The notes under the pieces are model-generated. The model was not told the origin of the DNA, did not search any database, and worked only from the letters and a program-made list of their open reading frames with translations. From Prochlorococcus sp. AG-409-B05 (lineage in GTDB: Bacteria > Cyanobacteriota > Cyanobacteriia > PCC-6307 > Cyanobiaceae), in assembly GCA_003216075.1 (NCBI GenBank), contig QCJK01000002.1, positions 1 through 64,000 of the forward strand: DNA of 64,000 nucleotides, read 5' to 3'. The translations under genes and the position numbers were made by a program. Shown here one piece after another: positions 395-5,327 of this stretch (position 1 is its first letter; each line of letters starts with the position of its first letter).

Positions 395-595
395 TTAACT
401 AAAAACCCCATTCGATCTAGGAACTGTATTGGCGGTCATGAATTCGCGCAGGCCCTTAAGTTTTAGATATTTTCTGCCCTTTTTATCCAAATAAAGGAAT
501 TCATCGAGTCGTCCACTATCAATCCATTGATATAACTGTGATCTCGAACGAAAACCCAGGATTTTGGCTGTCTCACTGATAGTGGCAAAGGCCAT
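395..595 (-). CDS. small helix-turn-helix protein, excisionase-like
   Basis: This 66-residue protein starts MAFATISETAKILGF and then RSRSQLYQWIDSGRLDEF. The pattern is a MerR/excisionase-type helix-turn-helix: a recognition segment, then a short basic wing (KKGRKYLKLKGLREF). Such proteins often act as recombination directionality factors or element repressors. The gene is the last of three minus-strand genes in the island. The perfect inverted repeat at 665-683 lies about 70 bases upstream of its start, a plausible operator. The function is inferred only from the fold. Confidence 0.6.
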   Translation of the reverse strand: MAFATISETAKILGFRSRSQLYQWIDSGRLDEFLYLDKKGRKYLKLKGLREFMTANTVPRSNGVFS

Positions 596-770: not shown

Positions 771-1616
771 CTACTCGACAAATCTGCCATTTTGAAAAAG
801 CCTTTGGGAAGGATGTTTATGAGGTTGGCAGTCAGTCTGCCTTGGGTTGAGTTGATATTGCTCATATTTAGCAACCTCTATGTTCTGCCAACCCTTACCG
901 ATCGCCAGAACCAACTGATCTTTAACCACAATATCTCCGTACTTCTCATGTAGTTCTAAAAGCTGAGCCATTTGCCAATTCCATTGAGACGTTGTGGTTT
1001 TCACCTGTCGTGATTTTATGAATTCTCTGATTTGTTCTTCGTGATCAATTAACTCGTTAGGAACTTTGAATGTTTGTTCTATAGAGACCTTTTCTATTGC
1101 TTCTTGTTTTGTTCTTGTATTTGCAACCGACAGTTTGTCTTTCGGGTAACCGACTGGTTGTCTTTTAGCTAAACGACTATTTGTCTGTTCTGCGTCAGAC
1201 AAGTTTTTGTCTGTTAGATGAAGCGCATCTTCAATTGTTACTAGTTGAAAGTACTTCTTCTGGATATAGCCCTGCCGCTCATAAAGCAGTAGACCTAATG
1301 ATTTAAGAACTGCGAGTCTCCTTTCAACACTTTTTATTGAGCATGAAGTTTTTTCAGCTAACCACTCCTGCGTTATTTGTTTCCAGAGACCAGATTTTCC
1401 ATTTAAAGGATATCTCTCACGCCCTTTTGTCCAGACTCTATAAAGCAAGCTATAGAGTTCAGTCAGACTCTTTAATTTTTGAAGAGATAAAAGAAGGCGT
1501 TTGTTTAAGGCAAGTTGAGCGACCTTTAAGACAAGATCGCTATCAATGTAAAAGTAACCTGCGGTTTGAGTTGCCTTTTCCCCTTTCTCCTCAAATGAAG
1601 AGGGAGTTGAGTCCAC
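771..1616 (-). CDS. winged-helix replication-initiator-like protein
   Basis: This 281-residue protein has an N-terminal winged-helix domain: WKQITQEWLAEKTSCSIKSV and then ERRLAVLKSLGLLLYERQG, at about residues 75-120. This resembles plasmid and phage replication initiators and element-borne wHTH proteins. The middle is hydrophilic and low in similarity to anything I know, and it is encoded over the iteron-like repeats. The C-terminal part (residues 190-250) is helical. It starts two bases after the stop of the upstream HTH gene, so the two are co-transcribed. No catalytic motif of a relaxase, primase or helicase is visible, so the replication role rests on fold and on the repeats. Confidence 0.6.
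   Translation of the reverse strand: MDSTPSSFEEKGEKATQTAGYFYIDSDLVLKVAQLALNKRLLLSLQKLKSLTELYSLLYRVWTKGRERYPLNGKSGLWKQITQEWLAEKTSCSIKSVERRLAVLKSLGLLLYERQGYIQKKYFQLVTIEDALHLTDKNLSDAEQTNSRLAKRQPVGYPKDKLSVANTRTKQEAIEKVSIEQTFKVPNELIDHEEQIREFIKSRQVKTTTSQWNWQMAQLLELHEKYGDIVVKDQLVLAIGKGWQNIEVAKYEQYQLNPRQTDCQPHKHPSQRLFQNGRFVE
1128..1213. repeat. iteron-like array, four units with 23-bp period
   Basis: Units begin at 1128, 1151, 1174 and 1197, exactly 23 bases apart. Their cores are CGACAGTTTGTCT, CGACTGGTTGTCT, CGACTATTTGTCT and AGACAAGTTTTTGTCT; the last has three extra bases. Because 23 is not a multiple of three, the repeats fall in different codon phases and encode different residues, so selection is on DNA and not protein. 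A fifth core is at 668-680. The pattern fits initiator binding sites of an iteron origin located within the initiator gene. Confidence 0.6.
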
Positions 1617-1618
1617 AA

Positions 1619-1945
1619 TTACCTACCCCCCTTCGCAACGAGGTCAATTAGGTGATCTTCGTTGTAGGTCTCAACTGGTTGAATAGATTGTGTCTGCGCC
1701 TTTTGCTTAGCTAGTTCTGCAGTGCGCTTAAGCAATGCAGCTCTACAACGTTCCAGGCAATAAACATGCTTACCTCGAACTTTTCCGGAGCCCAAGGTAT
1801 AGAAATCATTTCCAGGAACTAAAACTCGTTCGTTTTTTAATTCGTAGATAAGTCGAGTTGAGCAATGTAGTTGTTCAGCCAACTGTTCAATTTCCAGCCA
1901 AGTTCCTTCTAAAGATTGGCAATCCAACTGATTATTGGATGACAT
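1619..1945 (-). CDS. HTH DNA-binding protein of the island
   Basis: This 108-residue protein contains TWLEIEQLAEQLHCSTRLIY at about residues 15-34, a clear helix-turn-helix, followed by a basic hairpin. The C-terminus is polar with an Ala/Lys/Gln-rich helix. It is the first gene of a minus-strand pair and ends two bases before the start of the replication-like gene. A regulatory or replication-accessory role is likely by context. I do not recognise a named family. Confidence 0.6.
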   Translation of the reverse strand: MSSNNQLDCQSLEGTWLEIEQLAEQLHCSTRLIYELKNERVLVPGNDFYTLGSGKVRGKHVYCLERCRAALLKRTAELAKQKAQTQSIQPVETYNEDHLIDLVAKGGR

Positions 1946-2331
1946 ATGAAGTGATGATCTTCGCGAATCCGACCCACGTATACATTTGTCCTATTACGTG
2001 CGGTTGATGCCGTTCACCTCCCCTGTAGCGACTATTCCTGAGGATGCTCTTCAATCTCAGGTCACCTGCTGAATTGCTTCCCCATAGCTTTCTCAACCCT
2101 TCAACAGGATGTTTGAGATTTTCAACTCAGGATGCGCGGGGCCGCATTAATCCCTGAGTGGTCGTGATTGCTGGAGGATTCCGACTTCGCTAAAGGAAGT
2201 TTAGCTAGATGAATCGAGTTGAATGGAAAAACCTGAGATTCGCGTGGAAACCTTGCTACAACAAACCATTGAAAAAGACCATTCCACGGATTTTTCCACG
2301 GATGGCCTTTCGTCAGTCAATGAGACTCCAG
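1946..2331. other. spacer between island genes and tRNA-Pro, with short direct repeats
   Basis: No convincing gene is seen in these 386 bases. A 10-base direct repeat TTCCACGGAT occurs at 2282-2291 and 2294-2303, with a 12-base period and a core similar to the DnaA-box consensus TTTTCCACA. In element-in-tRNA arrangements the stretch directly 3' of the tRNA is where the attachment junction lies. A second copy of the tRNA 3' end was not found in the window. Confidence 0.4.
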
Positions 2332-2405
2332 TCGGGGCGACAGGATTCGAACCTGCGACCTAGTGCTCCCAAAGCACCCGCGCTACCAAGCTGCGCCACG
2401 CCCCG
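2332..2405 (-). tRNA. tRNA-Pro (anticodon UGG)
   Basis: Read on the minus strand, the acceptor arms CGGGGCG and CGCCCCG pair, with discriminator A. The D arm is GCGC/GCGC, the anticodon stem is GGTGC/GCACT with loop TTTGGGA (anticodon TGG), and the T loop is TTCGAAT with stem GCAGG/CCTGT. It is 74 bases with no encoded CCA. Its 3' end faces the island genes at lower coordinates, the usual orientation for site-specific integration into a tRNA 3' end. Confidence 0.97.
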
Positions 2406-3289: not shown

Positions 3290-3853
3290 TTATGCTTCAA
3301 AAAGAAAATTGCACTCCTTTGTTATTCCTGATAATGACAAAAGACTCAAGTCGATATGTGAGAGGACGATGCTTAACCGTGGTAAGGATACATGCGCACC
3401 AGAAGACTTGATGTGGCATGTTCGTTAAAATATATCCACTAAAAACATTAACATTGTTGGCTCAATATTTTGACTACACTAGTAGTAGGCCGTCAGCTTT
3501 TTGATGTGCTCAGGACTAAGGCAACTAATCCTTGAAGCCGCTGGTATGCCTAGAAGCGTAAAGACAGCAAGTAAGTCATCAGTAGCAACTTTGAGCTGCT
3601 AGGCAAGCTCTAAAAACATGATAGTAATGCCTTTTGCGTACTTTCAGCTGTAAAGTCTATCCGAGATATTCTTATAGAGTCGTCTCTTATTTAAGTTAAA
3701 TAATCAATGCAAGTATGATGTCTAGAGATGAAAAAATATAGAAGAAGCTTCTTTGAGTCTTTTGAGATTTGTCTACCATAAAATCAAGGGAGGGTTTTTA
3801 CTTATTGCTTGAAGCTGGGAATAAGTTAAAAAGGATCAATTGTGATCCTGCTA
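3290..3853. other. gene-poor stretch with possible relic ORF
   Basis: No gene of normal size is visible in these 564 bases. A 32-codon frame at 3504-3602 reads MCSGLRQLILEAAGMPRS and onward. After its stop, a shifted frame continues with ELLGKL, which could mean a decayed small gene. This is weak, and most of the stretch shows nothing recognisable. Confidence 0.3.
3832..3849. promoter_or_regulatory. perfect inverted repeat just before a small gene
   Basis: AGGATCA, four-base spacer, TGATCCT ends five bases before the ATG at 3854. The left arm contains an AGGA ribosome-binding-like sequence. It could be an operator or a hairpin that hides the ribosome-binding site; both are inference. Confidence 0.4.
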
Positions 3854-4238: not shown

Positions 4239-5327
4239 TCAACCATTCAAATTGACACTTGCATTGTCAAGGTTGCCGATGGCAGCTGGAATGCGCTTGA
4301 AGTCGAAGCCCATTGCGCGAATAGCGTGCCAAAGATGGCCTTGGATGAAGAAGAATCCTAAATAGTAGTGGACGTTGGTTAACCAAGCACGGGAAGTGTG
4401 GCCTAGAGGTGCACCATCGATAGAGGCAACTGTATCTGCCCAATATGGAGAGATGCCAAACTTGAGTGCCAAAGGCTCTCCGTACCAAGCTTCTGGATAC
4501 ACAGTTGTATTTGATGCGCACCAGAAAGCAGCAACAATTGCCATCCAACCAATACCAGCTAGTGACCAGGAAAGTATGGCCTCGGCTGATAGAACATTTT
4601 TACCTTTGAAGGAGGTGTATTCACCAATTTGCTTTGTAGCAATGTGGAAAGCACCGCCTATGATTTGCCAAAAAGCAAGGAATGCATGGCCGCCTAAAAC
4701 ATCTTCAAGACTGTCAATAGCTAAGAAGTCAAATTGATGGTTCCAGATGGCTGAGACATCTAAGTTGTAGGTGACTTGACGAATACCCTCTATTGCTGGG
4801 TCATAGATTCCGTGAACTCTGGCCCATTCAACGAACCAGATATTCGCAACACCAAAGAACACTAAGTGGTGGCCAAGAATGAAAGTCTGGTTATCAGGGT
4901 TGTCCCATTCCAGCTTGAATCTTGCGGCTTGACGGTGCTCAGGTCTATCAGGTGCAAAAAGCCCTGAGCTGTTTTGTGTGTCTTCACTGAAGACCAAAGA
5001 GTGCAGTACTCCTGCGCCTGCGTAGACCATGGAGCAGATCAAGTGGAAGACGCCTATGAAGACAACTCCCGCTCCTGTCCATACTCCAGCTTCGTCGAAG
5101 CCAATGCCGAGAGAAGCTAAATGGGGTAGGAAGATTAATCCCTGGTGCCCCATTGGTAGGGAGGGGTCAAAGCGTGCTAATTCAAAAAGGGTGATAGCAC
5201 CAGCATTGAAGGCAATCAATCCTGTATGGGCAACATGCGAGCCAATAAATCGGCTTGACTTGTTGGTCACCACAGAATTACCAACCCACCACCCGTAGGT
5301 GACGTCTGGATTTCCGTAGGTCTGCAT
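4239..5327 (-). CDS. pcb: Pcb chlorophyll a/b-binding antenna protein (copy 1)
   Basis: This 362-residue member of the CP43/IsiA/Pcb superfamily binds divinyl chlorophylls and forms the thylakoid antenna of Prochlorococcus. It starts MQTYGNPDVTYGWWVGNSVV. Six hydrophobic helices are visible, with His residues in AHTGLIAFN, FHLICSMVY, ILGHHLVFF, GGAFHIATK and GHLWHAIRAMGFDF likely to bind chlorophyll. The large CP43 lumenal loop is absent, as expected for Pcb. The loop near residues 115-140 is longer than in copy 2 (17063-18118). A long leader with a structured element (5564-5627) lies upstream. Confidence 0.95.
   Translation of the reverse strand: MQTYGNPDVTYGWWVGNSVVTNKSSRFIGSHVAHTGLIAFNAGAITLFELARFDPSLPMGHQGLIFLPHLASLGIGFDEAGVWTGAGVVFIGVFHLICSMVYAGAGVLHSLVFSEDTQNSSGLFAPDRPEHRQAARFKLEWDNPDNQTFILGHHLVFFGVANIWFVEWARVHGIYDPAIEGIRQVTYNLDVSAIWNHQFDFLAIDSLEDVLGGHAFLAFWQIIGGAFHIATKQIGEYTSFKGKNVLSAEAILSWSLAGIGWMAIVAAFWCASNTTVYPEAWYGEPLALKFGISPYWADTVASIDGAPLGHTSRAWLTNVHYYLGFFFIQGHLWHAIRAMGFDFKRIPAAIGNLDNASVNLNG

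Follow-up and report, generated by a model that had tools for sequence, protein, structure and literature searches.

How the genomic islands of Prochlorococcus multiply and spread is poorly understood, and an origin of replication inside an island gene would make their replication directly testable. The locus described here, from Prochlorococcus sp. AG-409-B05, raises this question through a replication-initiator-like gene whose own coding sequence carries regularly spaced repeats: do these repeats form an origin, and of what element? Unless another contig or locus is named, coordinates refer to the window, that is, the whole stretch of 64,000 nucleotides that was analysed (contig QCJK01000002.1, positions 1 to 64,000). 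The gene and the features within it are listed below.

771-1616, minus strand: replication-initiator-like gene of 281 aa with a GTG start (PHROG and Pfam profiles, fold search)
1242-1541, minus strand: predicted winged-helix domain, residues 26-125 (AlphaFold2 model and PDB fold matches)
1197-1212, plus strand: putative iteron 4, variant AGACAAGTTTTTGTCT, with 6-bp dyad arms and a 3-nt insertion (sequence; homologous site in locus L002, see below)
1174-1186, plus strand: putative iteron 3, CGACTATTTGTCT (exact match; codon phase 1)
1151-1163, plus strand: putative iteron 2, CGACTGGTTGTCT (exact match; codon phase 0)
1128-1140, plus strand: putative iteron 1, CGACAGTTTGTCT, coding strand AGACAAACTGTCG (exact match; codon phase 2)
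1086-1125, minus strand: A-rich, purine-rich tract, candidate unwinding element (composition; lambda O parallel)

A pattern search of the window located exact GACnnnTTGTCT sequences at 1129-1140, 1152-1163 and 1175-1186, in steps of 23 bp, and an extra copy outside the initiator gene at 669-680; these four are the only exact copies in the 64 kb. The whole 1.8-Mb genome contains 12 copies, compared with 19 of the reversed control pattern, so that the cluster is notable by its density, with 4 of the 12 packed into one 520-bp stretch. The preliminary description had placed four cores exactly 23 bases apart, which is correct for the three exact copies, but the fourth is off register: the core given as nGACnnnTTGTCT at 1197 is in fact AGACAA-GTTT-TTGTCT, with GAC at 1198 (+23) and TTGTCT at 1207-1212 (+26). 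This fourth site is a better dyad than the other copies, with a 3-nt (one-codon) insertion. All sites of the array are dyads, of the form GAC-N5-GTC or, in the fourth, AGACAA-N4-TTGTCT. Integral helical spacing had also been proposed, but 23 bp corresponds to about 2.2 turns. Two further statements were borne out, namely that the same core lies within the perfect palindrome at 665-683 and that the letters shared by the copies are conserved at the DNA level, since the codon phases of the three in-gene copies (2, 0 and 1) are all different. Among 2000 synonymous-codon shuffles of the gene, none contained three GACnnnTTGTCT matches and 9 contained two. In a motif-agnostic test for three-copy periodicity, 14 of 2000 synonymous shuffles equalled the gene at 9/12 matches and 1 of 2000 at 12/16; taken alone, this periodicity carries modest odds, and it is the homologue test below that makes the case. 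The tract at 1086-1125, directly 3′ of the repeats on the coding strand, is 57.5% A, which no other 40-nt stretch of the gene exceeds and at least one equals; this value is of modest significance, as 32 of 2000 synonymous shuffles reach it. ACAAGA occurs twice in this tract.

The repeats occupy codons 135-163 of 281 and encode a linker between the predicted N-terminal winged helix (residues 26-125) and the helical C-terminal part. The protein matched PHROG 678, 'replication initiation O-like', remotely (1.1e-6 over residues 60-262), PHROG 186, DnaD-like (1.4e-4), and other initiator PHROGs. Pfam returned weak matches to HTH_11 and HTH_36 (PF13730), both below cut-off, and none to Phage_rep_O; neither RepA_N (PF06970) nor Rep_3 (PF01051) was matched at E<=1, the likeness to RepA_N being one of fold only. 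The full-length AlphaFold model was poor (pLDDT 44), and the N-terminal domain was modelled instead with AlphaFold2 (residues 16-135, pLDDT 75). Among the best PDB fold matches of this winged-helix model were 4pql, 4pt7 (described as an initiator) and 5kbj (a Rep-DNA complex), while its best viral fold match was a phage replication initiator and the top viral matches were 'replication initiator' proteins. By profile and model, the protein appears to resemble phage O-like/HTH_36 initiators and, by fold, RepA_N-type Rep domains. A plasmid-origin layout had been suggested for this locus; the placement of iterons within an initiator gene survives from that suggestion, the protein itself being of the O-like/HTH_36 and RepA_N-fold kind. 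A classic Rep_3 iteron plasmid initiator was rejected, as PF01051 was not matched and the iterons lie inside the gene rather than outside it.

Our reading, to which we give a probability of about 0.8, is that the repeats are iterons of a theta-type origin lying inside the coding sequence of its own initiator, of the lambda O/RepA_N type, and serving excision-linked replication. We favour it because the protein falls, by sequence and fold, among initiators; because the gene matches lambda O in domain order, site number, spacing and side of the A-rich tract; because the four sites are kept in a homologue, as a phylogenetic footprint; because a motif-only scan of viral DNA lands in wHTH initiator ORFs; because comparable initiators adjoin DnaB or an AAA ATPase; and because other Cyanobiaceae genomes carry in-gene iteron initiators. 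Counted against it were the remote family matches, the single homologue with its degenerate sites, the modest A-rich tract, the poor full-length model and the contig end at base 1, before which no helicase, loader or integrase is seen beside the gene. In the mechanism we propose, cooperative binding of the wHTH domain to the GAC-N5-GTC dyads would lead to melting of the A-rich tract beside them; a host helicase or primase would then be recruited through the C-terminal part, directly or via a loader, and the element would replicate after excision from tRNA-Pro.

The closest yardstick is lambda O, whose layout as used here agrees with the published description of ori-lambda (PMC7466680). Both proteins have an N-terminal wHTH-type DNA-binding part, and both genes have four dyad iterons in the part coding for the linker, at codons 117-144 of 299 in lambda O and 135-163 of 281 in the window gene. 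The annotated lambda iterons start 20, 24 and 23 bp apart, compared with the 23-bp steps of the window, and in both genes an A/purine-rich tract of the coding strand follows just 3′ of the iterons. The two differ in iteron letters (CCCTCAAAACGAGGG in lambda, AGACAAACTGTCG in the window) and in the lack of a Phage_rep_O match in the window protein; a P-like partner is not seen before the contig ends. This lambda-like layout suggests that the island can copy itself on leaving the chromosome. RepA_N initiators such as pSK41 Rep likewise consist of an NTD with a wHTH, an ori-encoding linker and a CTD, with four Rep boxes located centrally in rep, and the functional plasmid pPR9 has a chimeric Rep whose N-terminus is an HTH_36 domain similar to a phage replication protein (PMC5703833). 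The window protein shares the three-part layout, its PDB fold matches include N-terminal domains of Rep initiators, and the HTH_36 of pPR9 has its counterpart in the weak PF13730 match. It differs from the RepA_N group in lacking PF06970 and in belonging to a chromosomal, tRNA-integrated cyanobacterial element rather than a staphylococcal plasmid.

A single homologue of the initiator was found among 400 genomes of the family, in genome G017 (locus L002), with 214 aa and 33% identity. No further homologue was present in 266 genomes of the same genus, and searches of IMG/VR, GTDB r220 contigs, named phages (tblastn) and, by sequence, PDB gave no close one. The L002 gene also lies just 3′ of a tRNA-Pro-TGG with a small ORF between them, in the same order as in the window, the small ORF (63 aa) taking the place of the 108-aa ORF there. 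We derived a position weight matrix from the four exact sites of the window and scored this gene with it; the four best sites of the whole gene were at nt 402, 425, 454 and 471, the homologous positions in the window being 402, 428, 451 and 474. This placement was matched by 0, 1 and 0 of 3000 synonymous shuffles for three pseudocounts, and the summed score was never reached. The L002 sites are degenerate, with GTC steps of 23, 29 and 23. All four sites are conserved at the DNA level in a 33%-identical protein gene, albeit in one distant homologue and in degenerate form; loss of the repeats in homologues had been named earlier as the observation that would speak against the proposal, and degenerate forms of all four were found at homologous positions.

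We also scanned 2.9 million viral contigs for a GACnnnTTGTCT pair at 23 bp, using no protein information. This pattern was present in 13 contigs, or 8 distinct contexts once duplicates were merged, and in 11 of the 13 (6 of the 8 distinct contexts) the array, which often comprised more than two copies, fell within the ORF of a wHTH protein, immediately 3′ of the wHTH-coding part. Of the six distinct proteins, five matched replication-initiation PHROGs at E<=3e-5, and the remaining one, at L029, did so weakly (0.005). In a profile comparison, the wHTH of the window gene and those of the viral proteins matched with a probability of 88.5% over 36 columns. DnaB is encoded after the comparable initiators at L071 and in Vibrio phage 1.177.O, and a few genes on at L073; an AAA ATPase gene follows the one at L028. 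The symmetric dyad pair AGACAnnnTGTCT, with a gap of 5-33 bp, was less specific, with initiator ORFs at 6 of its 20 new loci, compared with 0 of 17 for its reversed control, only about 6 of which were distinct. The reversed control of the 23-bp pattern returned 6 contigs, 3-4 of them also within O-like initiator genes, which means that a general layout, and not the AGACA/TGTCT letters alone, is detected by such scans. Tandem dyads at 23-bp spacing thus mark in-gene origins generally, with AGACA/TGTCT as one flavour among them, and given the result of this control we make no claim that the iteron letters derive from a common ancestor. Since a tandem dyad pattern at 23 bp is by itself enough to locate initiator genes in viral DNA, it could serve as a cheap origin finder for uncultured phages and islands.

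Two of the viral arrays deserve separate description. The phage initiator at L028:656-1414, and likewise at L025, has seven AGACAAAATGTCTA-type copies in its linker (one mismatched) and overlaps the AAA-ATPase gene; this linker array is likely a phage origin. At L031:719-935, a viral contig end, a dense array of AGACAAACCGTCTGA dyads lies outside any long ORF.

The surroundings of the initiator gene, and the related sequences elsewhere in the genome, are as follows.

395-595, minus strand: 66-aa HTH_17/excisionase-like protein (Pfam HTH_17, 2.6e-7, above cut-off; PHROG 66 excisionase/regulator, 4.8e-4)
665-683, no strand: perfect palindrome AATAGACA-GTT-TGTCTATT (sequence)
1619-1945, minus strand: small putative DNA-binding protein of 108 aa, encoded immediately upstream of the initiator gene (weak HTH_11 match)
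2328-2376, minus strand: proposed att core, the tRNA-Pro 3′ half up to the anticodon loop (alignment with partial copies)
2331-2405, minus strand: tRNA-Pro (TGG), proposed integration site (ARAGORN)
C45:410-458 (L113): tRNA-Pro 3′-half copy, exact over 49 bp including 3 flanking bases
C36:9067-9106 (L115): tRNA-Pro 3′-half copy, partial
C30:11545-11593 (L116): tRNA-Pro 3′-half copy, partial
C47:895-944 (L114): tRNA-Pro 3′-half copy, partial
L113:618-1838 (C45): 406-aa divergent tyrosine recombinase-like ORF (PHROG 1, 3.5e-12; Pfam PF00589 only 0.015)

The four copies on other contigs lack the rest of the tRNA and are 96-100% identical over 40-50 bp. Since the 3′ half of tRNA-Pro is repeated in four places, one of them beside a tyrosine-recombinase ORF, the tRNA is very probably an attachment site used by tyrosine-recombinase elements of this genome, in agreement with the earlier description of a tRNA-integrated picocyanobacterial element. 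The recombinase-like ORF on C45 is intact and lies 160 bp from the exact att copy, and it is not linked to the initiator's contig, C2; no exact overlap between the ends of C2 and those of the contigs with att copies was found. The tRNA-Pro island seems to be a composite of several elements, and the assembly may have been interrupted by the island's repeats. On the element side of the tRNA the order is the 108-aa ORF, the initiator, the palindrome and the 66-aa HTH_17 gene, followed by the contig end at base 1; a Pcb-like chlorophyll-binding protein is encoded at 4239-5327, gene content that fits a Prochlorococcus-like picocyanobacterial host. Tycheposons are described, at second hand, in PMC10872708 as tRNA-integrated elements of Prochlorococcus, and the best reading of the present sequence is a tycheposon-like tRNA-integrated island. 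The likeness consists in a tRNA site with a repeated 3′ half and, in the same genome, a tyrosine-recombinase ORF beside one copy; the difference is that the window element is cut by the contig end. Our literature search, beyond whose reach the original tycheposon paper lay, found no paper joining iterons and Prochlorococcus; in-gene origins are of a known kind, and their occurrence in a Prochlorococcus-like tRNA island appears to be undescribed within the literature searched.

The alternative that survives best overlaps with the in-gene origin reading and concerns present activity: initiator and sites would be inactive relics of a phage or plasmid. We regard this as unlikely, if by no means negligible. 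In line with such decay, no helicase, loader or integrase was seen beside the initiator before the contig end, 394 bp past the next downstream gene, an absence that follows from the contig ending at base 1. The shorter G017 homologue may itself be a remnant, and none of its neighbouring ORFs was noted as an integrase. In contrast, the 281-aa reading frame of the window gene is intact, with sites near consensus, and the recombinase-like ORF beside an att copy in the same genome is intact as well.

It is improbable that the repeats are operators only, at which wHTH or small HTH proteins control the element's transcription (autorepression or immunity) with no origin involved. wHTH and HTH genes are found all around, regulation and initiation often share sites, and the lone copy of the dyad at 665-683, just past the stop of the initiator gene and about 70 nt upstream of the 66-aa gene, is probably an extra site or an operator for that excisionase-like gene. 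However, four regular sites well within a coding sequence, with about 0.4 kb of the gene to each side, would be unusual for operators; a promoter scan yielded nothing above chance and no promoter-like site among the four; and the protein family, together with the many in-gene arrays of phage initiators beside DnaB or ATPases, points to origins. Arm-type binding sites of an integrase or excisionase in the attachment region are very unlikely, even with an excisionase-like gene nearby and the att-like behaviour of tRNA-Pro: lambda-type integrases have their arm sites no more than about 250 bp from the core, this array is 1.1 kb from the tRNA, and the comparable phage arrays are inside initiator genes, not beside att. 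Least credible is chance, or a by-product of protein-coding repeats, for although up to 0.7% of synonymous shuffles showed similar periodicity in the motif-agnostic three-copy search, each copy has another codon phase, the exact 12-mer also occurs outside the gene, the 33%-identical homologue keeps all four sites and the viral-contig scan lands in initiator genes.

In-gene origins are not unique to this island, since O-like HTH_36 initiators with in-gene iterons were identified in three other Cyanobiaceae genomes (L101:9027-10091, L102:8854-9825 and L103:1110-2267); their iterons are different, GC-rich CCCCCAAAAGGGG sequences 24-25 bp apart, followed by AACAAGA repeats. Prochlorococcus also has proteins of about 328 aa that match PHROG 678; they lack repeats, their sequence marks them as GntR-like chromosomal regulators, and we left them out. 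If the in-gene origin reading is true, a 1.2-kb cassette of gene and sites predicts a mini-replicon and a rise in copy number on excision, and offers a possible vector for a group of organisms with few genetic tools. Only tentatively, and with more doubt than confidence, do we extend it to the broader proposal that AGACA/TGTCT linker iterons in small HTH_36/wHTH initiators represent a widespread, unnamed class of origins shared by unrelated phages and picocyanobacterial tRNA islands, that excised islands self-replicate, and that such origins can be found by DNA pattern alone.

Further repeated sequences were observed around the attachment copies. A 54-aa ORF with an IF2_N domain (L113:1835-1981) follows the integrase-like ORF of C45, and its DNA recurs with 86-95% identity on C30 and C36 and, within the window, on the right-hand side of tRNA-Pro (3482-3628). 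Positions 1-61 and 241-306 of the window are 82-84% identical to parts of C30, C45 and C36, and the latter segment includes a terminator-like hairpin (AAGGGGGCC...GGCCCCTT).
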